This document shows, in pieces, positions 8,871-48,978 of a stretch of 64,000 bases of DNA (the first letter of the stretch is position 1; every line of letters begins with the position of its first letter). The notes beneath the pieces are model-generated. The model had not been told where the DNA came from, did no database searches, and was given only the letters and a program-made list of their open reading frames with translations. Source of the DNA: Cryptosporangium phraense. GTDB lineage: Bacteria; Actinomycetota; Actinomycetes; Mycobacteriales; Cryptosporangiaceae. Location of the stretch: assembly GCF_006912135.1 (NCBI RefSeq), contig NZ_VIRS01000010.1, forward strand, positions 1 to 64,000, read 5' to 3'. The translations under genes were made by a program, and so were the position numbers.

Positions 8871-9412
8871 ATGACCGCGACATTGGGTGACGTGACCCCG
8901 AGGAAGAAGCAGCCCGAACTGACCGCTGAGGCGCAGGCCGCGGCGGAGCGGGTCCGGCTGGCCCAGGAGCAGGGCCTGTCGTCAACGGGCCCGGACGGGC
9001 TGCTCAAAGCGCTCACCAAGACCGTCCTGGAGACGGCGCTGAACGAGGAGATGACCGAGCACCTCGGGCATGCGAAGGGTGGCCCGCCCGCGCAGCCGGG
9101 CGGGAACGTGCGCAATGGGAGCCGGCCGAAGTCGGTGCTGACGGAGAACACCGGCGAGGTCGAGATCGACGTGCCGCGCGACCGGGCCGGTCGTTCGAGC
9201 CGCAGATCGTGAACGAGCGCCAGCGCTGGTTGTGGGGGGTGGACGAGGTGGTGCTGTCGCTCTATGCCAAGGGTCTGACGACCGGTGAGATCACGGCGCA
9301 TTTCGTGGAGATCTGCGGTGTTCATCGACGCCATCGTGGTGAAGGTCCGCGACGGTCAGGTCGCCAACCGGCCGTTCTCCGCCGCGATCGGCGTCACGTT
9401 GTCCGCACCACC
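8871..9412 (+). pseudogene. Broken IS256-family (mutator) transposase
   Basis: From ATG 8871 the frame reads VTPRKKQPELTAEAQAAAER and later LLKALTKTVLETALNEEMTEHLGH in pieces, the usual start of an actinobacterial IS256-type transposase. It breaks near 9196 (RDRAGRSSRRS). The next frame gives VNERQRWLWGVDEVVLSLYAKGLTTGEITAHF, and after about 9318 a third frame gives FIDAIVVKVRDGQVANRPF. About 35 residues expected between those pieces are missing, and everything after about 9410, including most of the catalytic core, is lost. Together with copy B this makes 8.29-9.41 kb pure IS debris. Confidence 0.75.
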
Positions 9413-9510
9413 TTCCGCCTGGCCGCCCGGGCAGTACTGGGACGAACTCGAACGCAAGTATCCGGCCCACCGCCGGAATCACGTTGGTGAAACAGTCCCC
9501 GAGGCAGGCC

Positions 9511-10788
9511 TCAGGCGGGCGTGATCCGCACCGGGAACTTCTTGATGCCGTTGACGAAGTTGCTGCGGATCCGCGTCACGTCGCCGGTCGGTTCGATCGA
9601 GCCGAGCCGAGGGAGCAGCTCCTCGAACATCAGCCGGATCTCCATCCGGGCCAGGTTGTTGCCCATGCACAGGTGCGGGCTGCCCTTGCCGAACGTCATG
9701 TGGTCGACGTTCGTCCGGGTGACGTCGATCGCGTAGGGGTTCTCGAAGACGTCCTCGTCGCGGTTGCCGGACGCGAACCACATGACGACCTTGTCGCCGG
9801 CCGCGATCTGCTTGCCGCCCAGCTCCAGGTCCCGGGTCGCGGTCCGCCGGAAGTGGTACACCGGCGACGCCCAGCGCAGCAGCTCCTCGACGGCGTTCTT
9901 CATCAGGTCGGGCCGCTCGGTCAGCAGGCGCAGCTGCGACGGCTGCTCCATCAGCCCGAGCATCGAGTTGCTGATCGCGTGCCGGGTGGTCTCGTTGCCG
10001 GCGATGACCAGCAGCGAGAAGTAGTTGTTGAAGTCCTGCTGGGAGAGCGGGATGCCGTCGTCCGGGAGCCGGTTGGCCAGGATCGTGATCAGGTCGGTGC
10101 CGGAGCCGCCGACCCGGTCGGCGCGCAGCCGGTTGCCGTAGTCCCAGACGTCCTGGACGGTCGGCGACCGGAACGGCAGGTGCCGGTACTTCTCCGACTC
10201 GGCGGTGTCGGCCCGCACCGTCGCGTAGTCCGGGTCGGTGTTCGCGACCATCTCGTTGCCCCAGGCGATCAGCTGCGGGGTGTCCTCGGCCGGGACGTCG
10301 AGCAGCCGGGCCAGCACCTGGATCGGGAAGTCGGCGCTGATCTCGGTCACGAAGTCGATCTCGCCGTCGTGGGCCGCCGCCGTCGCGAACGCCCGGTCGA
10401 CGGTGTTCTTCGTGAGCTGACGCAGGAACGCCTCGTAGTTGCGCATCAGGTTCCGGGGCGTGAACTCGCGCTGGATCAGCTTGCGCAGCACCCGGTGGCG
10501 GCCGCCGTCCATCTCCAGGATCGAGCGCCGGAAGTCGCGCAGGTCGTCGTCGACGTCCTCCAGGCCGACGAACTGGGTCGACGTGAACGACTCGACGTCC
10601 CGGCCGACCGCCCAGATGTCGGCGTACCGGGTGACCGCCCAGAACCCGGTGCCGTCCTTCTCGTCGGTCCAGTGCACCGGGTCCTCGGCGCGCAGGGTGT
10701 CGAACTGCGAGTAGCCGCGCAGGTCGGCGAAGCCGTCGATGTCGGAGAGGTCGACGTCGCTCAGCGGGACCGGGGCGTGACGGGGCAT
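9511..10788 (-). CDS. Cytochrome P450
   Basis: This 425-residue soluble bacterial P450 has the oxygen-activation I-helix motif IAGNETT near residue 255, the ExxR motif in EELLRWASPVYHFRR, and the heme-binding segment FGKGSPHLCMGNNLA with the cysteine ligand. Length is typical (about 400-430). It is the last gene after the glutamine-synthetase-like gene (12 bp gap, same strand), so it probably shares that operator-controlled promoter. P450s insert one oxygen atom using electrons from a ferredoxin/reductase; no redox partner gene is adjacent. Substrate is unknown; a ring or side-chain hydroxylation of an amine-derived compound would fit the cluster. Confidence 0.9.
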   Translation of the reverse strand: MPRHAPVPLSDVDLSDIDGFADLRGYSQFDTLRAEDPVHWTDEKDGTGFWAVTRYADIWAVGRDVESFTSTQFVGLEDVDDDLRDFRRSILEMDGGRHRVLRKLIQREFTPRNLMRNYEAFLRQLTKNTVDRAFATAAAHDGEIDFVTEISADFPIQVLARLLDVPAEDTPQLIAWGNEMVANTDPDYATVRADTAESEKYRHLPFRSPTVQDVWDYGNRLRADRVGGSGTDLITILANRLPDDGIPLSQQDFNNYFSLLVIAGNETTRHAISNSMLGLMEQPSQLRLLTERPDLMKNAVEELLRWASPVYHFRRTATRDLELGGKQIAAGDKVVMWFASGNRDEDVFENPYAIDVTRTNVDHMTFGKGSPHLCMGNNLARMEIRLMFEELLPRLGSIEPTGDVTRIRSNFVNGIKKFPVRITPA

Positions 10789-10800
10789 CGGGGGAGCTCC

Positions 10801-12141
10801 TCAGATGTGGTACGTGTACTCCTGGAATTCCCAGTCGGTGATCCAGGTGCGGAAGCGCTCGATCTCGTCGCGCTTGTAGGCCAGGAACACGTCGACGAAC
10901 GGCTTTCCGAGCAGGCCGGCGAACTCGGCGTCGGCCTCCAGCGCGTCCAGCGCCTCGCCCAGGCTCCGCGGCAGCGTGGCCGAGCGTGCGGGGTCGTAGC
11001 CGTAGCCGACCAGGGCGTCCGGCGGCTCGATCCGGTTGCGGATGCCCAGCAGCGCGCCGGCCAGCATCCCGGCGATGGCCAGGTACGAGTTGGCGCTGGC
11101 GTCACCCAGCCGCAGCTCGAGCCGGGACGCGGCCCCGCGCTCCGGCGGGATGCGCACCATCGCGCTGCGGTTGTCGAGGCCCCAGTCGATCAGCCAGGGG
11201 GCCAGCGTGTCCGGGCCGAAGCGCTTGTACGAGTTGATCGTGGGGTTGGCGACCGCGGCGATGGCCGGGGCGTGCTTCAGGATCCCGCCGATCGCGTGGT
11301 GGGCGACCGCCGACAGCCCGTCCGGGGAGGACGGATCGTCGAACGAACCGTCGGCCAGCGAGAAGTGCAGGTGGTACCCGGAGCCGCCCTCGTCGTTGAA
11401 CGGCTTCGGCATGAACGTCGCCAGGTGGCCGTTGCGGCGGGCCAGCTCCTTGACCGCGTCCTTGAAGCGGTGGGCCCGGTCGGCCGCGTCCAGCGCGCCG
11501 CCGTGCCAGAGGTTGATCTCGAACTGGCCGGACGAGAACTCGTGGTTGGCCGCCACCACGTCGATGCCGTAGTCGCCGAGCTGGCGCAGCGACTGGAGCA
11601 GCACGTTCTCCGGGTCGCCCTTGCGGCCGGCCGTGTAGACGTTGCCGGTCCCCTCGCCGTAGCGCTTCCAGCCCGACGGTGACGCCGCCGACTCGGTAAG
11701 CAGGTAGAACTCGAGCTCCGGGCCGACGATCGGCGTCGCCGCCTCGGCCTCGAACTGCTCGCACAGGCTGCGTAACACCTGGCGCGGGCTTTCGGCGGCG
11801 GGTGTCCCGTCCGGATTGAAGACGTCGGCGATGCAGTGCGCGACGCCGGGCTCCCAGGGCAGCGGACGCAGCGTCGACAGGTCGGGGAACGCGACGACGT
11901 CGGGCAGGCCGGCCGAGAGGCCGCCCTCGAAGTCGACGACCCCGCCGCGCGGGGTCGTGCCGTAGACCGAGCGGCAGAACGCGACGCCGCCGCCGACCGT
12001 CCGGGAGAAGTGGTCGACCAAGAGGTCGCGACCGCGGTCGACTCCGATCAGGTCGGCGTAGCCGAGCCGGACGACGTCGATGCCGTCGGCGGTGAGCCGG
12101 TCCTGCGCGGGCCGCAGCCCCGAGGTGTCGAAGTGCGCCAC
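10801..12141 (-). CDS. Glutamine-synthetase-like gamma-glutamyl-amine ligase (PuuA/GlnA3 type)
   Basis: This 446-residue protein has the GS fold: beta-grasp N-terminus, then ATP/metal segments GPELEFYLL, ANHEFSSGQFEINL, GSGYHLHFSL, NPTINSYKRF and RLELRLGDASANSYL. It lies in a catabolic cluster with a PuuD-like hydrolase and an amino acid/amine permease rather than with nitrogen genes. This is the setting of enzymes that join glutamate to an amine (PuuA, IpuC, aniline-type ligases). The GTG start 12141 is chosen for the GGAGG nine bases upstream. Its promoter carries the shared palindromic operator at 12159-12172. The glutamate acceptor cannot be read from sequence. Confidence 0.82.
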   Translation of the reverse strand: MAHFDTSGLRPAQDRLTADGIDVVRLGYADLIGVDRGRDLLVDHFSRTVGGGVAFCRSVYGTTPRGGVVDFEGGLSAGLPDVVAFPDLSTLRPLPWEPGVAHCIADVFNPDGTPAAESPRQVLRSLCEQFEAEAATPIVGPELEFYLLTESAASPSGWKRYGEGTGNVYTAGRKGDPENVLLQSLRQLGDYGIDVVAANHEFSSGQFEINLWHGGALDAADRAHRFKDAVKELARRNGHLATFMPKPFNDEGGSGYHLHFSLADGSFDDPSSPDGLSAVAHHAIGGILKHAPAIAAVANPTINSYKRFGPDTLAPWLIDWGLDNRSAMVRIPPERGAASRLELRLGDASANSYLAIAGMLAGALLGIRNRIEPPDALVGYGYDPARSATLPRSLGEALDALEADAEFAGLLGKPFVDVFLAYKRDEIERFRTWITDWEFQEYTYHI

Positions 12142-37387: not shown

Positions 37388-37585
37388 GACTAGGACCTCC
37401 CAGGCCATAAAGGAACGACCGGACCCTAGCATTCCTAGCGTCTTAGTAGGTAATTGGAAAGTTCCATTGTCGACAGGTGGAACGAAAGGTAGCGAAGCCG
37501 CACGAGGGGTACCTAGAGTGGGGACCGCTGGTCTGTGGCAGAGCCGAGACTCAGCGTGATGTTGGACCAAAGGCGGTTCTTCACC

Positions 37586-41142
<3,557 letters not shown>

Positions 41143-41326: not shown

Positions 41327-41788
41327 ATGGCGACCGCGCAGGACCGCGATTTACTGCTGGAGAAACTCGGGCTCGACGGCCAGAACAAGGCCGCGCTCGG
41401 GAAAGTGCTGAACACGGGCAACATCGGGCAGGCCACCGAGCGGGCCGACGGCACGATGGAAGCGACGATCCGGATCCAGCCCGACGAGATCTGCTGGGAT
41501 CCGTCGATTCTGGTCCTGCCCCACGGTGGCGACGTCGAACTCACGCTGATCAACGACGACCTGAACACGCATTGCGCGTTACTGCCGAGTAATGGCGACC
41601 GCAAATTCATTTGGCTGGTCAACCATTCGAAGGGCCGCGCGACGCTCAATCTCGACGGTCCCGGCTACTACTGGTTCAGCTCGCCGACCGGCAACGACGA
41701 GGGCCGCGGACTCACCGGCACGATCGTCGTCCTCGGTGACGTACCCCCGGAAGCCCGCCTCGACCGCCCGCCGCAGCCCCGCCCGTAA
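41327..41788 (+). CDS. Cupredoxin-like small protein without copper ligands
   Basis: This 153-residue protein has a beta-sandwich pattern like a cupredoxin: ILVLPHGGDVELTLINDD, then the late strand-loop GYYWFSSPTGNDEGRGLTGT. In copper proteins that loop carries Cys, His and Met. Here those places hold Ser, Asn/Asp and Leu, so type 1 copper binding is unlikely. There is no signal peptide, and an in-frame TAG at 41294 excludes an upstream extension. A good Shine-Dalgarno (GAGGAGAGG) precedes the ATG. It is first in the operon with the PQQ dehydrogenase (9 bp gap), so it is probably its partner, chaperone or electron carrier of a new kind. Confidence 0.62.
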   Translation: MATAQDRDLLLEKLGLDGQNKAALGKVLNTGNIGQATERADGTMEATIRIQPDEICWDPSILVLPHGGDVELTLINDDLNTHCALLPSNGDRKFIWLVNHSKGRATLNLDGPGYYWFSSPTGNDEGRGLTGTIVVLGDVPPEARLDRPPQPRP

Positions 41789-41797
41789 GGAGGAACC

Positions 41798-43492
41798 ATG
41801 ACCGTCGAGTACGTGGACGCGGGCGAGGCCGTCGACCAGGGCCGGCTGTCCGGCAAGGTCGCCGGCGGCGAGGTCGCCCCGCCCGTCACCGAGAACGTCA
41901 CCTACGAGCGCATTCTGGACGCCCGCTCGGAACCCGAGAACTGGCTCACCTACTACGGAGCCCACGACGGCCAGCGGTTCAGCCCGCTCGACCAGATCAA
42001 CACCGAGAACGTCAAGCGCCTGCTGCCCGCGTGGGTGTTCCAGGCCGGCAGCAGCGGCATCATCGCGGGCGCATCGACGTACTCGTTCGAGGCGACGCCG
42101 ATCGTCGTCGACGGCATCATGTTCCTGTCCGGCTGGGACGGCTGGGTCTGGGCCCTGGACGCGGCGACCGGCACCGAGATCTGGCGCTACAAGCACGCGA
42201 TCCCGTTCGACGTCTCGCTGTGCTGCGGGAACGTCAACCGGGGCGTCGCGGTGGCCCGGAACAAGGTCTTCTTCGTCACCGCCAACGCGCACCTGATCGC
42301 GCTCGACGCGACGACCGGCAAGAAGGTCTGGGACAAGGTCAAGGGCGACGTCCGGGCCGGGGAGAGCGCCACCAGCGCGCCGATCGTCATCAAGGACATG
42401 GTCGTCGTCGGCAGCGCCGGTGGCGAATTCGGCGTCCGCGGGCACCTCGACGCGTTCGACCTGGAGAGCGGCGAACACCGCTGGCGGTCGTACATGGTGC
42501 CGAAGCCCGGCGAGCCGGGCGCCGAGACCTGGCCGGCCGACGGCGAGGCCTGGGCCCGCGGCGGCGGCAACCCGTGGCTGGTCGGGACGTTCGACCCGGA
42601 CACGAACCTGATGTACTGGGGCACCGGCAACCCGGCGCCCGACTTCGACGGCGGCGTCCGCGAGGGCGACAACCTGTACACCGACAGCGTCGTCGCGGTC
42701 GACGTCGACTCGGGCGAGATCCGCTGGCACTACCAGTGCACCCCGCACGACGTCTGGGACTACGACAGCATCTCGGAGTGCATCCTGTTCGAGCACGACG
42801 GGCGCAAGCTGCTCGGGCACTTCGACAAGAACGGCTACTTCTTCGTCCTCGACCGCACGAACGGCGAGCGGGTCTCGATCACGCCGTTCGTCGACCGGAT
42901 CACCTGGGGCGCGATCACCCGCGACGGCCAGGTCGCGGCCAAGGTCTATCCCGACGAAGAGGGCGTGCCGGTGCACTTCTACCCGGGCCCGGCCGGGGCC
43001 AAGGAGTGGACCCACGCCTCCTACAGCCCGCGCACCGGCCTGTTCTACGTCCCGGTGCAAGACGTCGGGGCCACGGCCACCCGGCGCCGCCGGGAGTTCA
43101 AGGAGAGCATCCCGTACTGGGGCGCGGGCGTTCAGGTCGACATCGAGGAGGCGGTCGGCTACGTCAGCGCGTTCGACGCCAACGGCGACGAGAAGTGGCG
43201 CTGGCGCAACGAGCTCCCGATGTGCGCGTCGACGCTGGTCACCGGCGGTGACGTCGTGTTCGCGGGCGAGCCGTCGGGCGAGTTCAACGCGCTCGACGCC
43301 CGCACCGGGGAGCAGCTGTGGCAGTTCCAGTGCGGCAGCGGCCACCACAGCAGCCCGATCACGTACGCGGTGAACGGACGGCAGTACGTGGCGGTCCCGG
43401 TCGGCTGGGGCGGCTGGGCCGAGGGGTTCCTGCCCGGCATGCTCGGCGCCGGCCACGGCAGCGCCCTGTTCGTGTTCGCCCTGCCGGAATAG
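41798..43492 (+). CDS. PQQ-dependent alcohol dehydrogenase with lanthanide-type site, no signal peptide
   Basis: This 564-residue beta-propeller quinoprotein dehydrogenase should oxidise an alcohol using pyrroloquinoline quinone. The vicinal disulfide pair is C142-C143 (VSLCCGN). Metal ligands expected from the family are E210 (GGEFGVRG), N278 (WGTGNPAPD), and the catalytic base D321 in HDVWDYDS. D323, two residues on, is the extra acid typical of lanthanide-dependent XoxF/ExaF/PedH; calcium MxaF has Ala there. The start, with AAGGAGGAACC immediately upstream, gives no signal peptide, unlike known periplasmic relatives. It is followed by pqqABCDE. Confidence 0.88.
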   Translation: MTVEYVDAGEAVDQGRLSGKVAGGEVAPPVTENVTYERILDARSEPENWLTYYGAHDGQRFSPLDQINTENVKRLLPAWVFQAGSSGIIAGASTYSFEATPIVVDGIMFLSGWDGWVWALDAATGTEIWRYKHAIPFDVSLCCGNVNRGVAVARNKVFFVTANAHLIALDATTGKKVWDKVKGDVRAGESATSAPIVIKDMVVVGSAGGEFGVRGHLDAFDLESGEHRWRSYMVPKPGEPGAETWPADGEAWARGGGNPWLVGTFDPDTNLMYWGTGNPAPDFDGGVREGDNLYTDSVVAVDVDSGEIRWHYQCTPHDVWDYDSISECILFEHDGRKLLGHFDKNGYFFVLDRTNGERVSITPFVDRITWGAITRDGQVAAKVYPDEEGVPVHFYPGPAGAKEWTHASYSPRTGLFYVPVQDVGATATRRRREFKESIPYWGAGVQVDIEEAVGYVSAFDANGDEKWRWRNELPMCASTLVTGGDVVFAGEPSGEFNALDARTGEQLWQFQCGSGHHSSPITYAVNGRQYVAVPVGWGGWAEGFLPGMLGAGHGSALFVFALPE

Positions 43493-43511
43493 TCGAGAGG
43501 AGGAACAGCCG

Positions 43512-43595
43512 ATGATGGAGTGGGAGACGCCTTCGTTCGAGGAAGTCTCGGTCGCCCCCGAGGTGACCATGTACATGGGCACGCTGGAGCCCTGA
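43512..43595 (+). CDS. pqqA: PQQ precursor peptide PqqA
   Basis: This 27-residue peptide lies between the dehydrogenase and pqqB and has GAGGAGGAAC upstream. Its core EVTMY holds the conserved glutamate (E17) and tyrosine (Y21) with the E-x3-Y spacing that PqqE cross-links to begin PQQ synthesis. The flanks differ from classical PqqA (acidic N-terminus MMEWETPSFEE, short tail MGTLEP). pqqB starts one base after its stop. Confidence 0.93.
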   Translation: MMEWETPSFEEVSVAPEVTMYMGTLEP

Positions 43596-43596
43596 C

Positions 43597-44409
43597 GTGA
43601 AGGCGCGGGTGCTCGGCTCGGCGGCCGGCGGTGGCTCGCCGCAGTGGAACTGCCACTGCGACGTCTGCACCGCGGTCCGGTCCGGCGCCGGGCACCCGCG
43701 CACCCAGTCGTCCCTCGCGGTGACGGTCGACGACCGTCAGTGGTTCCTGTTCAACGCCTCGCCGGACGTCCGGACGCAGGTCGACGGCCTGCGCCTGTCC
43801 GCGGTACTTCTCACCGACGCCGAGCTCGACCACACCGCCGGGCTGCTGTTGCTCCGCGAGGCGGACGTCGTCGAGCTGTACGCCACCCCGGCGGTGTACG
43901 AGACGCTCCACGACGGCTCGGGGCTGTTGCCGTTGCTCGCGAGGTACTGCCGGGTCGAGTGGCGCCCGGTGGATCTCGGCGTGGAGTTCGTGCTGGCCCC
44001 GGGGCTGTCGTGCCGGGCGTTCGACGTCCCGACGACCAAGCGCGACCGGTTCGGGGTGGGCGTCGGGGCCGGCCGGGTGGTCGGGTACCGGATCACCGAC
44101 ACCCACTCCGGCGGGACGCTGGTCTACCTGCCGGGCGCGCAGGCGCTGCCGTCGCTCGACCCCGCCGACGTGCTGCTGTTCGACGGCTCGTTCTTCCGCG
44201 ACGACGAGATGGGCCCGGCCCGCACCGCCCGGGACATGGGGCACCTCCCGATTCTCGACAGCCTCGAGCCGTTGTCCGGCTTCCGGCGGGTGATCTACGT
44301 CCACATCAACAACACGAATCCGATCCTGCTCGACGACTCGCCCGAGCGGCGGGCCGTCGAGGCGCGCGGCCTGGAGGTAGCCATGGACGGCCTGGAGATC
44401 GAGCTATGA
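43597..44409 (+). CDS. pqqB: PQQ biosynthesis metallo-beta-lactamase-fold protein
   Basis: This 270-residue protein begins with the PqqB hallmark [19 protein letters not shown], whose cysteines form a structural zinc site. The lactamase-fold segments [18 protein letters not shown] and [16 protein letters not shown] follow. PqqB hydroxylates tyrosine in the excised Glu-Tyr precursor. The GTG start is one base after the pqqA stop, and its stop overlaps pqqC. Confidence 0.93.
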
Positions 44410-45107
44410 CCGCGGTACTCGGTACGGACTTCGTCGCCACGCTGCGGGCCCACTCCCAGCGCTACCACGACGCCCACCCGTTCCACGTCCGCATGAACGA
44501 GGGACGTTGCACCCCGGAGCAGCTGCGCGGGTGGGTGGCCAACCGCTTCTACTACCAGGAAGCCATCCCGCGGAAGGACGCGGCGATCCTCTCCAACTGC
44601 CCGGACGTGGACGTCCGACGGCGCTGGATCCGGCGGATCACCGACCACGACGGCAGTGTTCCCGGTAGTGACGGGGAGCCCGGCGACGGCGGGATCGAGG
44701 CCTGGCTGCGGCTGGGGGAGGCGGCGGGCCTCACCCGGGAGGAGATCCTCGACCATCGGCACCTGGTGCCGGGCGTGCGCTTCGCGGTCGACGCGTACGT
44801 GAACTTCTGCCGGACGCGGCCGTGGGTGGAGGCGGTGGCCTCGTCGCTCACCGAGCTGTTCGCGCCGGACCTGATGGCCTCGCGGTTGGCTGCTTTCGAG
44901 CGGTACTACCCGTGGATCGAGCCGTCGGGGCTGGAGTACTTCCGGAACCGGCTGACCCAGGCGCCGCGCGACTGCTCGCACGCGCTGGAGGTCGTGACGA
45001 CGTACTGCCTCTCGGCCGAGTCCCAGGCTGCGGCCGTCGATGCGCTGTCGTTCAAGTGCGACGTGCTGTGGAGCCAGCTGGACGCGATCGACAAGGCGTA
45101 CCCGTGA
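44406..45107 (+). CDS. pqqC: Pyrroloquinoline-quinone synthase
   Basis: This 233-residue all-helical oxidase performs the last ring closure and oxidation to PQQ. Matching segments are [88 protein letters not shown] and [25 protein letters not shown]. Length agrees with known PqqC (about 240-250). It overlaps pqqB and pqqD by 4 bp each. Confidence 0.95.
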
Positions 45108-45364
45108 GCCGGCCCCGGTTGGCGCGGCACGTGCGGCTGACGTTCGACACCACCCGGCAGAAGCCGATCCTGCTGCTGCCGGAGACGGTCGTGGTGCTCA
45201 ACGCGACCGGCGCGGCGATCCTCGAGCAGTGCGACGGGTCGCGGACCGTGGCCGAGATCGAGGAGTCGCTGGCCGTGCGGTACCGGACGGTGCCGGCCGG
45301 GGAGGTCCAGCGGTTCGTCGACGGGCTGGTGGCCCGGCGGTGCGTGGAGCTGGCCGATGGCTGA
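45104..45364 (+). CDS. pqqD: PQQ peptide chaperone PqqD
   Basis: This 86-residue RiPP recognition element binds PqqA and presents it to PqqE. It has the winged-helix pattern [43 protein letters not shown] with helix [14 protein letters not shown] start overlapping pqqC, stop overlapping pqqE by 8 bp; separate pqqD is the common state, as opposed to PqqCD fusions. Confidence 0.93.
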
Positions 45365-46427
45365 GCCGTTCGGGCTGCTGGCCGAGCTCACGTACCGGTG
45401 CCCGCTGGCCTGCGCGTACTGCTCGAATCCGGTGAACCTGGGGGATTACACCGAGGAGCTGTCCACGTCGGACTGGGCGCGGGTGTTCTCCGAGGCCCGC
45501 GACCTCGGCGTGCTGCAGTGCCATCTGTCCGGCGGCGAGCCGTTGCTCCGGCGGGATCTGGTTGCGCTGGTGTCGGCCGCTTCGTCGCTCGGTCTGTACA
45601 CGAACCTGGTGACCAGCGCGGTGGGGCTGTCGCGGGGGACGGCGTCGCGCCTGCGTGACGCCGGGCTGGACCACGTGCAGATCAGCATCCAGGCCGATCA
45701 GCCGCTGATCTCCGACCGGCTGGCCGGGATCCCGTCGTTCCACCGCAAAGTCGCCGCGATGCGCGTGGTGAAGGAACTGGGCTGGCCGCTGACCGTCAAC
45801 GTCGTGCTGCACCGGCAGAACATCGACCGGGTCGGGGAGCTGCTGGAGTTCGCGGCCTCGGTGGGGGCGGACCGGGTCGAGCTGGCGAACACCCAGTACT
45901 ACGGGTGGGCCTGGCAGAACCGGGACGCGCTGCTGCCGTCGCGCTCGCAGCTCGCCGCGGCCGAGGAGGTGGTGCGGAGCTTCTCGTCGTCGGACCTGGA
46001 CGTTCTGTACGTGGTGCCGGACTACTACGGCAAGTATCCGAAGCCGTGCATGGGCGGCTGGGCCGCCCGGCAGCTGACCGTGACGCCCAACGGCGACGTG
46101 CTGCCGTGCCCGGCGGCCCAGTCGCTGCCGCTGCCGAGGGCGTCGGTGCACTCGGCGTCGCTGGCCTCGATCTGGGCGGACTCGCCGGTGATGAACGCGT
46201 TCCGGGGGACGGACTGGATGCCGTCGCCGTGCGCGTCGTGCGATCGGCGGGGCGTGGACTTCGGTGGGTGCCGGTGCCAGGCGTTCCAGCTGACCGGGGA
46301 CGCCGCGCGGACCGATCCGGTCTGTCACCTCTCGCCGGATCACGCGCTGGTCACCGACGCGGTCGCGGCCGCGAACGAGTCGGTGGACGTACCGTTGATT
46401 CCCCGGCCGCACCGGGCCCGGGCATGA
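45357..46427 (+). CDS. pqqE: PqqA peptide cyclase (radical SAM/SPASM)
   Basis: This 356-residue enzyme forms the carbon-carbon bond between Glu and Tyr of PqqA. The radical SAM motif CPLACAYC is near residue 16 in LTYRCPLACAYCSNP. The SPASM region has cysteines in GKYPKPCMGGWAARQLTVTPNGDVLPCPAA and PSPCASCDRRGVDFGGCRCQ for the auxiliary clusters. Length is somewhat shorter than in proteobacteria (about 380). It overlaps pqqD and the antiporter gene start. Confidence 0.95.
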   Translation: MAEPFGLLAELTYRCPLACAYCSNPVNLGDYTEELSTSDWARVFSEARDLGVLQCHLSGGEPLLRRDLVALVSAASSLGLYTNLVTSAVGLSRGTASRLRDAGLDHVQISIQADQPLISDRLAGIPSFHRKVAAMRVVKELGWPLTVNVVLHRQNIDRVGELLEFAASVGADRVELANTQYYGWAWQNRDALLPSRSQLAAAEEVVRSFSSSDLDVLYVVPDYYGKYPKPCMGGWAARQLTVTPNGDVLPCPAAQSLPLPRASVHSASLASIWADSPVMNAFRGTDWMPSPCASCDRRGVDFGGCRCQAFQLTGDAARTDPVCHLSPDHALVTDAVAAANESVDVPLIPRPHRARA

Positions 46428-47536
46428 TGTCGATCCTGGTGTTCGCGCTCGGGGCCGGGGTGCTGGTCTACAGCGCCGAGAAGCTCATCGTGTATCTGGT
46501 GGGGGCGGCCAGCGGGCTGCGGATCTCGGTGTTCCTGCTGGCGATCCTGTTCACCGGCATCGAGTTCGACGACGTCGCGCTGGGCGTTGCGCTCAACGTC
46601 GAGCACCTGGGCGGGGTGGCGTTGGGGACCGTGTTCGGGACGGCGATCTCGATGACCGGGATCGTCCTGGCGCTGGCCGCGATCGTGTGCCCGACCAGGG
46701 TGAACATCCCGGGGAGTTACCTGGCGCTGTTCGCCGCGTCGCCGCTGATGATGATCCCGTTCGTGCTGTCGGCGCCGCTGACGCCCGGGGATGGTGTGGT
46801 GTTGCTGGCGCTGTTCGGGGCGTTTCTGGCGTACGTCGCGACGAAGGAGCTGCAGAGCACGACGCCGATCTTCCGCAACGCCGAGATCCTCGAGCGGATC
46901 GGCGGGGGACCGGACGACCCACCTGAGCCCCCACGGCCCGGCCGCGGGACGGGGCCGCCGAGCGGCGAGCCGCCGACGGCTCCCGGCGGCGAGGTGTCGA
47001 CGGCTCGCGGCGGCGAGGCGCCGTTCACGGTGATGATGCCGTTCTCGAAGACCCGGCCGCTGCCGAAGTGGGGCGGCCTGGCGTTGGCGGTCGTCGCCCT
47101 GACTGGCCTGATCGCCGGCGCCGCGATCACCAGCTCGGGCATCGGAGGAATCCTCGACGGCTACGGAATCCAGGGCACCCTCTTCGGCGCGACGATCGCC
47201 ACCCTCGTGCTCTCGCTGGAAGACATCTTCCTCACCGTCGAACCCAACCGCCGCGGTGCCCCGGAGATCGGGATCGGCAACGTCATCGGCAGCGTCGTCT
47301 TCGGCGTCACCGCGAAGTTGGGCATCATCCTGCTCACCGGTGGCCGGATCGCCGTGGGCAGCGACGTCCTGGCCTGGCACTTACCGGTGCTGATCGGGAT
47401 GACGTGGCTCTCGGCGTGCTTCATCCGCACCGGCCGTCTCCGCCGCTGGCACGGTTTCGTACTGCTGGCCCTCTACGTCACGTACTGGGCCGTCAGCTTC
47501 ACGATCCTCGGCACCGCCCCCATCGACCCCGACTAG
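46424..47536 (+). CDS. CaCA-family cation antiporter in the PQQ operon
   Basis: This 370-residue membrane protein has about ten helices in two halves, as in Na+/Ca2+ exchanger-type proteins. The alpha-repeat-like segments are LFTGIEFDDVALGVALNVEHLG and SLEDIFLTVEPNRRGAPEIGIGNVIGSVVFGVTAKLG. A Pro/Gly/Glu-rich loop of about 45 residues joins them (PPEPPRPGRGTGPPSGEPP). Its ATG overlaps the pqqE stop (two possible ATGs, 46424 and 46427), so it is the last operon gene. Handling of Ca2+ or a lanthanide, the metals of PQQ dehydrogenases, is a reasonable inference. Its TAG stop (47534-47536) lies within the IS4 target duplication. Confidence 0.78.
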   Translation: MMSILVFALGAGVLVYSAEKLIVYLVGAASGLRISVFLLAILFTGIEFDDVALGVALNVEHLGGVALGTVFGTAISMTGIVLALAAIVCPTRVNIPGSYLALFAASPLMMIPFVLSAPLTPGDGVVLLALFGAFLAYVATKELQSTTPIFRNAEILERIGGGPDDPPEPPRPGRGTGPPSGEPPTAPGGEVSTARGGEAPFTVMMPFSKTRPLPKWGGLALAVVALTGLIAGAAITSSGIGGILDGYGIQGTLFGATIATLVLSLEDIFLTVEPNRRGAPEIGIGNVIGSVVFGVTAKLGIILLTGGRIAVGSDVLAWHLPVLIGMTWLSACFIRTGRLRRWHGFVLLALYVTYWAVSFTILGTAPIDPD

Positions 47537-47539
47537 CGC
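47530..47539. repeat. Target-site duplication of the IS4 element, left copy
   Basis: CGACTAGCGC directly precedes the left end and is repeated directly after the right end at 49061-49070. Joining the two flanks recreates the original sequence after the antiporter gene. Ten base pairs is in the range known for IS4-type elements. Confidence 0.92.
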
Positions 47540-48978
47540 CAATGCCGGGTAGTTAAGGGCTGGTCTGGTTTGTCTGTCCCGGTGAGGACGTCGATGGTGA
47601 CGGTGGTCGGGTAGGTTCGGCGGTCGATGTGGGGGCCGCGGGCGTTGTATTTGGAGATGGCGCGTTTGACGGTGCGGGCGTTGGTCCGGGGCCGCCGGTC
47701 GGGTAGAAGGTCGGCGAGGATGGCTCGGCCGATCGCGCCGACCAGGTCGATCGTGGTGTCAGCGATGACGCCGGCGGCGTGGATGACCTGATCGCGGGCG
47801 GCGTGCAGGGCGGTGGTGAATCCTGCTCGGTCGGGATCGAGGTCGGGGACGCTGTTGGTGGCGTCGGTCATTGCGGTGCGGATGGCCTGGTAGCAGATCA
47901 GCAGCGCCCAGACTTCCTGTTCAACACCGGCTGGGGTGCGGGCGCGCAGCACGCGTCCGCCCAGCAGCCCCGATTTGAGCTCTAGATAGGCGGTCTCGAT
48001 TTCCCATCGCTGGTGGTAGAGGCCGATCAGCTCTGCGGCGGGGTAGCGGCTGGTGTCGAGCAGGGTGGTGAGCAGCCGGTAGGTCTGGGTCCGGGACCCG
48101 GCGGTGGTCCGGACACTGATCCGGGCGTCGATGACCCGAACCGCAACGCCGCCGAACACGGAGCGGAACGATCCGTCGGGGTTGCGGGCCAGGGCGGGCA
48201 GCGCCGGGCCTCCGCGCCCGGTCCTGGCCCGGAACAACACCTGCGCGCCGGTGGAGTTGATCGCGGTGATCAGCCCGCCTGCGGTGAAGTTCCGGTCGGC
48301 CAGCACCAGCATCCCTGGGCGCAGCGCAGCGAACAGGCCAGGTGCGTAACGGGTCTCTCCGGTGCTGGCGGGCCCGAAGACCGCACTGATCACCGTGCGG
48401 GTTCCGCAGGCCAGCAGGGTCACCAGGCGCAGCGTCGGATAGGAGCCGCCGCCGCAGGGTCCACCGGCCTGTTTGCGATAGACACCCAGGTTCGCTGGGC
48501 TGTCGGGCACTGAGAGCAGGGTGCCGTCGATCGCGCAGAGCAGTAGTCCCCGCCATCGTGTTCCCGGGACCCTGCCGGTGGCCGCCGGGCCGGCGAGTAC
48601 CTCGAACAACCTGCGCAACGGGCCCGCGCCCAGCCTCGTCCGGGCCTGGGTCAACGCCGAAGCCGTCGGAATCGGCACCGGTAGGCCTTCCAAGCCGGCG
48701 ATCAGCCGCGCCCAGACCTGCCGGTATCCGATCCCGGTGAACAGACAGCCTGCCAGCAGCAGATACACCACGACCCGGGCCGGAAGGTTCCGGACCCGGG
48801 CCTGAACCGCGCCGGTCTCAGCCAGGACCTCGTCGACCATCTCGAACGGGACCTGCTGAGTCAGCTCACCCAGATGGCCGGCCGCGAACCGGTCAGGGGC
48901 CGCACCGACCGACCGGGTGATGACAGAATCCGTGGACAGCGGAGCTCCAGGTGACATGAGGTTGTCTCGGAAGGACAA
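47533..48978 (-). CDS. IS4-family transposase (DDE)
   Basis: This 481-residue transposase has the DDE residues in LCAIDGTLLSVPDS, GMLVLADRNFTAGGL and the glutamate of LYHQRWEIETAYLELKSGL, whose Y-(2)-R-(3)-E-(6)-K spacing is the IS4-family signature. An N-terminal domain (VDEVLAETGAVQARVRNLPARVVVYLLLAGCLF) precedes the catalytic part. The frame runs through the left end of the element and uses TAG at 47533-47535 in the target duplication as stop, so the last codons lie in the inverted repeat. No lesion is visible. Confidence 0.93.
   Translation of the reverse strand: MSFRDNLMSPGAPLSTDSVITRSVGAAPDRFAAGHLGELTQQVPFEMVDEVLAETGAVQARVRNLPARVVVYLLLAGCLFTGIGYRQVWARLIAGLEGLPVPIPTASALTQARTRLGAGPLRRLFEVLAGPAATGRVPGTRWRGLLLCAIDGTLLSVPDSPANLGVYRKQAGGPCGGGSYPTLRLVTLLACGTRTVISAVFGPASTGETRYAPGLFAALRPGMLVLADRNFTAGGLITAINSTGAQVLFRARTGRGGPALPALARNPDGSFRSVFGGVAVRVIDARISVRTTAGSRTQTYRLLTTLLDTSRYPAAELIGLYHQRWEIETAYLELKSGLLGGRVLRARTPAGVEQEVWALLICYQAIRTAMTDATNSVPDLDPDRAGFTTALHAARDQVIHAAGVIADTTIDLVGAIGRAILADLLPDRRPRTNARTVKRAISKYNARGPHIDRRTYPTTVTIDVLTGTDKPDQPLTTRHWR

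Follow-up and report, generated by a model that had tools for sequence, protein, structure and literature searches.

Quinoprotein alcohol dehydrogenases normally function outside the membrane, handing their electrons to cytochrome c. A gene cassette of the actinobacterium Cryptosporangium phraense (assembly GCF_006912135.1, contig NZ_VIRS01000010.1) raises the question of where such an enzyme works, and what accepts its electrons, when it carries no recognizable export signal and has no cytochrome c gene beside it. The cassette lies within a 64,000-nucleotide stretch (positions 1–64,000 of the contig), hereafter the window, and encodes a small protein, a pyrroloquinoline quinone (PQQ)-dependent alcohol dehydrogenase, the PQQ biosynthesis proteins PqqABCDE, and a cation antiporter. 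The original prediction, made from the letters of the window, described a self-contained PQQ system lacking export signals and a cassette cytochrome c, with a cupredoxin-like partner. The former part is supported and a role of the partner as a copper electron carrier is not, while a dedicated catalase-peroxidase (KatG), a regulator, a lanthanide-type ligand set, and an antiporter slot shared by two families had been overlooked. Our gene-neighborhood comparisons show a recurring predicted unit composed of regulator, katG, small protein, dehydrogenase, pqqABCDE, and cation transporter. With a confidence somewhat short of an even chance, we read it as a PQQ dehydrogenase of the cytosol, probably of lanthanide type, that KatG couples to O2/H2O2, and for which we infer both the acceptor and the metal.

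Conservation and extent of the unit

The eight genes first described, from the small-protein gene to the antiporter gene, are present at 41327–47536 in the predicted order with small gaps or overlaps, and each product scores against its expected family. This extent was correct as far as it went, but the true start lies further upstream, at a LytTR regulator followed by katG. The regulator stop codon and the katG start codon overlap by one base, and 184 bases separate the end of katG from the small-protein gene.

A pattern scan for the small protein across 84,980 species genomes recovered 126 relatives, 80 of which underlie the named-locus counts given throughout. These loci come from Pseudonocardia, Amycolatopsis, Saccharopolyspora, Streptomyces, Kineosporia, Prauserella, Arthrobacter, Cryobacterium, and other genera. 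The dehydrogenase is present in 77 of the 80, and in the remaining three the contig stops directly after the small protein. In 59 loci, KatG is encoded on the same strand as the small protein and at most 1 kb upstream; in the other 21 it lies farther upstream (5), elsewhere on the same strand (6), or on the opposite strand (3), or was not found (7, two of them with no room on the contig). Among the 59 close copies, that of L033 (Amycolatopsis alkalitolerans) is reduced to a remnant at 9262–9873, those of L004 and L035 run off the contig, and that of L061 is frameshifted. Broken frames of this kind occur in two draft assemblies, affecting katG in L061 (Pseudonocardia sp. CNS-139) and the dehydrogenase in L047 (Pseudonocardia sp. 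CNS-004). Directly upstream of katG, a LytTR regulator was found in 57 of the 71 named loci with katG on the plus strand; 12 are without it and two have no room.

Three genomes of the window's genus show the order regulator–katG–small protein–dehydrogenase–pqqABCDE–CaCA antiporter, identical to the window, and a linear plasmid from Streptomyces repeats this order with an MntP-type gene in the last place. The proposed search for this arrangement in other actinobacterial genomes was thereby answered, with related cassettes recurring in 80 named loci. Because the three same-genus genomes repeat it gene for gene and the 80 loci carry related cassettes, the gene order is, on comparative grounds, not a product of chance, and by the same kind of evidence the regulator and katG are part of the same conserved unit as the eight genes. 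Among plasmid records, the dehydrogenase was matched in 579 and the small protein in one only, the Streptomyces plasmid; phage records gave no match to the small protein. The unit is uncommon, occurring above the cut-off in 11 of 396 genomes evenly sampled from the phylum (host counted), and in 2 of 394 genomes of the class and 4 of 5 of the family (host counted in both). In a distant class of the same phylum, nine genomes hold ten loci with the small protein, the dehydrogenase, and pqq genes, two of these loci (L105 and L107) being cut short.

Predicted cellular location

Export was scored with a hydropathy scan (not SignalP) that takes the highest 12-residue hydropathy within the first 50 residues. 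By this measure, no signal peptide was found on 87 dehydrogenases (of which L047 is an internal fragment) or 91 small proteins, extending to relatives what had been claimed for the window pair, whose N-termini are also not hydrophobic by eye. Peak values had a median of 0.82 and a maximum of 1.68 (L075) for the dehydrogenases, and of 0.87 and 1.33 for the small proteins. Five of seven proteobacterial dehydrogenase controls reached 2.0–2.5, as befits a signal peptide, and the other two (0.70 and 0.68) have no signal as annotated. For 43 of the 91 small proteins and 28 of the 87 dehydrogenases, the reading frame is closed by a stop no more than 12 codons ahead of the aligned start; in the window itself this stop stands 11 codons upstream of the small-protein frame, as claimed earlier, and 4 codons upstream of the dehydrogenase frame. 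The original prediction had named relatives with a signal peptide ahead of a misjudged start as the observation that would speak against it. The hydropathy scan of relatives revealed none, and we rejected misjudged starts as an explanation. The dehydrogenase N-terminus carries a conserved hydrophilic stretch, YVDAGEAID or variants thereof, with EYxDAP in most distant-class loci. Since the scan gives no signal and in-frame stops lie close upstream in part of the set, a cytosolic location is well supported at the level of sequence.

The proteins might nonetheless be exported without a classical signal, or leave the cell in company with a further protein, and then work at its surface like ordinary PQQ dehydrogenases. 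Such a route would suit two protein families that are normally exported, a dehydrogenase with a conserved Cys-Cys pair, and the reported occurrence of actinobacterial KatG outside cells. Yet neither the dehydrogenase, the small protein, nor KatG offers a signal to ride on, two weak RR-like KatG cases aside, and the absence of a signal holds over all 87 + 91 scored sequences. The cassette's lack of a cytochrome c and the host genome's lack of PedF also count against it, and we regard export as quite improbable.

Metal ligands of the dehydrogenase

The window dehydrogenase matches TIGR03075, the model for PQQ-dependent methanol/ethanol dehydrogenases, at 617.6 bits (cut-off 480.05). Its closest solved relative is PedH, the top match by both sequence and fold, the latter obtained with a structure model of only fair quality (mean predicted local distance difference test score, pLDDT, 62.9). 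Alignment to PedH places the metal-ligand set at E210, N278, D321, and D323, and a vicinal cysteine pair at Cys142-Cys143. The motifs GGEFG, TGNP, and WDYD, which hold the Glu, Asn, and Asp-x-Asp ligands, are retained together with the vicinal cysteines in 75/75 distinct sequences from the window and named loci, a set from which identical sequences, small proteins below 135 amino acids, and dehydrogenases below 540 amino acids were left out. Since the distant-class dehydrogenases were truncated in that set, this length filter dropped every one of them, and they were checked in longer loci instead: all nine complete copies have the ligands and cysteines, and the tenth (L107) ends before two of the motifs. 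The three same-genus copies, the Streptomyces plasmid copy, and L167 likewise carry both features. The second Asp, two residues past the catalytic Asp, is the sequence mark of the lanthanide-type (XoxF/ExaF/PedH) enzymes, and by sequence the dehydrogenase is probably a lanthanide-type PQQ enzyme.

The arrangement typical of XoxF systems, an exported enzyme with a dedicated cytochrome c, is absent. Neither the matched module proteins of related loci nor the genes called at 30–60 kb of the window contain a CxxCH cytochrome motif, in agreement with the earlier claim that the cassette lacks a cytochrome c gene. No PedF-type cytochrome was found in the host genome, by a search that responded in 3 of 14 control genomes, with none above the cut-off, and XoxG was not searched genome-wide.

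The transporter slot and the choice of metal

Among the 60 named loci with pqqE, the slot beside this gene is occupied by an MntP-type gene in 39 (28 of them convergent) and by a CaCA gene in 10, with both in none and neither in 11. The distant-class loci with pqqE have MntP in seven of eight cases, L100 additionally having an adjacent CaCA gene, and in L167 the CaCA gene sits between katG and the small protein. CaCA fills the slot in all three further genomes of the window's genus, and a family search with a CaCA query matched, in each of the four unit-bearing genomes, the module copy and no other gene; the corresponding MntP search in the host family, which had no positive control, found nothing. 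The possibility that the antiporter is unrelated to the unit was rejected for the genus, given the shared slot, and is weakened elsewhere by the recurrence of a transporter slot. The CaCA/MntP label changes at least six times on the dehydrogenase tree, in which many forks are weak, so either the swap was repeated or the tree is unsure.

The window antiporter scores 81.2 bits with PF01699 (gathering threshold 24.9) and 57.5 with TIGR00367, below its cut-off of 179.65. The CaCA module copies have GIEFDD and SLED at the alpha-repeat positions (placed by eye), in place of the canonical GTSxPE. These acid-rich motifs are suggestive of a highly charged cation, but may belong to a wider subfamily. 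Because two different cation-transporter families occupy the same slot, they point to metal handling as their predicted contribution.

These families bear on whether the same cytosolic system might use Ca2+ rather than a lanthanide, its transporters then serving Ca2+ or Mn2+ homeostasis. Their assignment to CaCA and MntP agrees with this, and sequence cannot give lanthanide dependence with certainty. Set against it are the second Asp (WDYD) in every one of the 75 sequences, the very low level of cytosolic Ca2+, and the lanthanide dependence of PedH, the best solved relative; we consider a calcium enzyme quite improbable.

A cupredoxin relative without its copper ligands

With 285 bits for TIGR04339 (cut-off 75) and 271.8 for PF23509 (cut-off 27), the small protein is a full-length member of the MSMEG_3727 family, whose curated label says only that it is PQQ-associated. 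The family model gave six sub-threshold matches in the phylum scan, five of them classic cupredoxins whose copper loops are intact and whose N-termini look exported, the sixth ambiguous. When 17 small proteins were compared with these cupredoxins by hhalign, the probability was 96.6% (E 5.3e-10 over 92 columns), both profiles being shallow. A search of the PDB with the small-protein profile yielded only three insignificant matches, one of them a pseudoazurin at E 0.65; an AlphaFold2 model (mean pLDDT 53.7) was left unused.

In this alignment, the copper ligands His, Cys, His, and Met of pseudoazurin-type blue copper proteins correspond to H82, S119, D124, and L129. Only the first His of the type-1 set is shared, whereas Cys is replaced by Ser119, the second His by Asp124, and Met by Leu129. 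H82, S119, and D124 each occur in 88/88 distinct sequences and L129 in 86/88, and D77, D78, N80, N123, and E125 are likewise invariant in the 88. The small protein is, by profile comparison, a divergent cupredoxin relative without the Cys-His-Met copper ligands, and unlike the five compared cupredoxins it has no signal. The cupredoxin likeness first proposed is upheld, but its casting as a copper electron partner fails, with two of the four type-1 ligands replaced in all 88 sequences and a third in 86. Because these ligands are replaced, a blue-copper role is very unlikely on sequence grounds, and we rejected the idea of a copper electron carrier; the small protein is more plausibly a docking subunit or the holder of a metal site with oxygen ligands. 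Added here to the description of the family are the cupredoxin kinship with lost copper ligands, the missing signal, and the linkage to KatG and a cation transporter.

A module-specific KatG and the electron acceptor

The window KatG retains the distal Arg/Trp/His, the proximal His, and the residues of the Trp-Tyr-Met adduct, the Met of which is Met265. The host encodes two KatGs; the module copy is 79–80% identical to three same-genus module copies and 60% identical to the host's other KatG. In a tree of 106 KatGs, 68 module copies make up exactly one side of a branch (Shimodaira–Hasegawa-like approximate likelihood ratio test support of 92), opposite 38 others. The KatGs of L050, L053, L057, and L067 were excluded from the 68-member module set, a decision made after a first tree had placed them elsewhere; they lie more than 1 kb upstream with a regulator in between and fall on the other side of the branch. 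The set also leaves out module stretches below 1700 bases, matches below 600 amino acids, any with stops, and the frameshifted L061. The 34 comparison KatGs are the best-scoring matches returned as loci rather than a random sample, and none has the small protein in its fetched flank. KatG is common (45 of 60 genomes), yet the module copies form their own branch, so we rejected chance adjacency.

In 18 of the 72 module-locus KatGs, but in none of the 34 others, Phe, Leu, or Thr stands in place of the adduct Met, with at least eight changes on the tree; two of the three same-genus module copies carry Phe at this position. Judged by these comparisons, the module KatG is a separate paralog whose adduct Met was lost in some lineages. 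Without this residue a KatG loses its catalase activity and keeps its peroxidase activity, and the replacements thus suggest that the module enzyme serves as a peroxidase.

Assembled into a mechanism, PQQ would be both made and used in the cytosol, where the dehydrogenase would bind a lanthanide (or Ca2+) with PQQ and oxidize an alcohol. It would then be reoxidized by O2 and H2O2 without cytochrome c, with KatG removing H2O2 mainly as a peroxidase. The copper-less cupredoxin could be a bound subunit or a metal/cofactor handler of the dehydrogenase, with no part as a copper shuttle, and the CaCA or MntP-type transporter would balance the metal ion used by the enzyme. A more elaborate form is conceivable but unlikely: a cytosolic lanthanide system of Gram-positive bacteria in which electrons pass to H2O2 via a KatG turned peroxidase, for a net conversion of alcohol and O2 to aldehyde and water, and a former blue-copper protein with oxygen ligands (D77, D78, N80, N123, D124, and E125) hands a lanthanide or calcium to the enzyme.

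Several observations weigh against a KatG-coupled cytosolic system. PQQ dehydrogenases react slowly with O2. The ten distant-class loci (8–19 kb each; the same genomes were not searched elsewhere) yielded no KatG, and in L033 the gene is a remnant, so KatG cannot be indispensable. This absence, together with the adduct Met retained in the window KatG and in 54 of the 72 module-locus KatGs, weakens the case for KatG-coupled reoxidation. The vicinal cysteine pair, which forms a disulfide in exported relatives, is present in all complete copies inspected and would require oxidation in a reducing cytosol. As to location, in-frame stretches farther upstream reach a top hydropathy of 1.79 in one small protein (L099), and two KatG loci have an RR-like motif upstream. 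Finally, both transporter families are named as exporters and 11 of the 60 loci have neither beside pqqE; a transporter role in metal supply is a guess.

The distribution of KatG and the retained catalase adduct Met would suit a cytosolic PQQ dehydrogenase that passes its electrons to NAD, a quinone in the membrane, or an acceptor of mycofactocin type, with KatG doing no more than clear H2O2 from PqqC and stray PQQ autoxidation and the small protein serving as a structural subunit. That no acceptor gene was seen in the cassette is also in keeping with it. However, the H2O2 produced by PqqC is proportional to the PQQ made and hence a small source, the annotation shows no KatG within 1.5 kb of any of the seven proteobacterial control genes, and a KatG without the adduct Met is easier to explain as a peroxidase than as a scavenger, in part on general biochemical grounds. 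This alternative is possible, though in our judgment rather unlikely.

Two features of the distant-class loci touch on substrate and acceptor. In L101, a zinc alcohol dehydrogenase gene (9872-10981; Pfam ADH_N and ADH_zinc_N) adjoins the small protein; its product resembles class III formaldehyde dehydrogenase, a hint of a methanol substrate. Three of the ten loci have a gene for a ferredoxin-like protein (plant-type [2Fe-2S]) within 5 kb of the small protein, at L105:6408-6677, L108:3357-3626, and L109:13228-13497, which is a possible acceptor.

Relation to known systems

The published comparisons below draw on passages or abstracts of the cited papers. PedH/ExaF, lanthanide-dependent PQQ ethanol dehydrogenases (PDB 6zcv and 6zcw), share the beta-propeller, the E/N/D/D ligands, and the vicinal cysteines with the module dehydrogenase. 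PedH is described as part of a periplasmic system (abstracts of PMC6839425 and PMC5487730), whereas the module enzyme has no signal peptide, a hydrophilic N-terminal stretch, and no cassette cytochrome c. XoxF/XoxG methanol oxidation has the second Asp and PQQ in common with the module, but XoxF is periplasmic and works with the cytochrome XoxG (passages of PMC11845868). A further study, in the part consulted, also places XoxF in the periplasm and did not find it in its Gram-positive metagenome-assembled genomes (PMC10875860). The meaning of the second Asp as a lanthanide marker is also stated in a passage of PMC5606694. Throughout these passages, lanthanide enzymes are treated as periplasmic.

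For actinobacteria, passages of PMC5606694 report a xoxF5-like amplicon from one Arthrobacter isolate, which probably represents another clade than the module dehydrogenase, and, for a second isolate of that genus, a gain in growth on methanol (marked by a star) with Ce3+ relative to Ca2+; they also cite earlier actinobacterial PQQ synthesis on methanol and Pseudonocardia PQQ methanol dehydrogenase genes. In M. smegmatis, MSMEG_3721 to MSMEG_3727 are given as putative PQQ biosynthesis and PQQ-dependent alcohol dehydrogenase genes, and the need for mycofactocin in ethanol growth is said to exclude overlap with PQQ reactions under the conditions used (passages of PMC6529628). Those passages assign the genes no function beyond this. 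Prior knowledge within these sources comprises the NCBIfam and Pfam models of the small-protein family and the M. smegmatis genes as putative PQQ genes. The titles and abstract openings searched, with subscription journals lying outside the search, contained nothing on the association with KatG, the absence of a signal, or the loss of the copper site.

If the cytosolic reading is true, a conserved signal-less lanthanide-type dehydrogenase in Streptomyces, Amycolatopsis, Pseudonocardia, Arthrobacter, and other genera would be a possible reason for cytoplasmic lanthanides, and would suggest where in actinobacteria the use of PQQ might be sought. With KatGs that naturally lack the adduct Met, the identity of the electron acceptor can be put to a direct test.

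Layout of the cassette in the window

The features are listed in Table 1, where the regulator start codon is the choice of a simple gene caller. The IS4-family transposase gene shares the last 4 bases of the antiporter gene on the opposite strand, and the antiporter can still be aligned over its full length with copies from related genomes.

Table 1. Genes of the cassette and its downstream boundary in the Cryptosporangium phraense window
Feature	Position	Strand	Profile evidence
LytTR-type transcriptional regulator	37535-38977	+	PF04397 E 4.1e-14; GAF match weak, below cut-off
katG, catalase-peroxidase	38977-41142	+	TIGR00198 and NF011635, both above cut-off
MSMEG_3727-family small protein	41327-41788	+	TIGR04339 E 9.9e-86; PF23509 E 1.4e-81
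PQQ-dependent alcohol dehydrogenase	41798-43492	+	TIGR03075 E 1.7e-185
pqqA, PQQ precursor peptide	43512-43595	+	TIGR02107 above cut-off; PF08042
pqqB	43597-44409	+	TIGR02108 above cut-off
pqqC	44406-45107	+	TIGR02111 above cut-off
pqqD	45104-45364	+	TIGR03859 above cut-off
pqqE, radical SAM/SPASM maturase	45357-46427	+	TIGR02109 above cut-off
Divergent CaCA-family cation antiporter, acid-rich repeats	46424-47536	+	PF01699 E 9.8e-23; TIGR00367 below cut-off
IS4-family transposase, bounding the cassette downstream, outside the unit	47533-48978	-	NF033592 above cut-off; PF13006, PF01609

Variation in pqqA was seen elsewhere. L033, L075, and L081 each contain two pqqA genes, one after the dehydrogenase and the other leading pqqBCDE on the opposite strand, and Psychromicrobium silvestre (L081:6622-12290) has two divergent copies of the small protein and dehydrogenase pair, each followed by its own pqqA.

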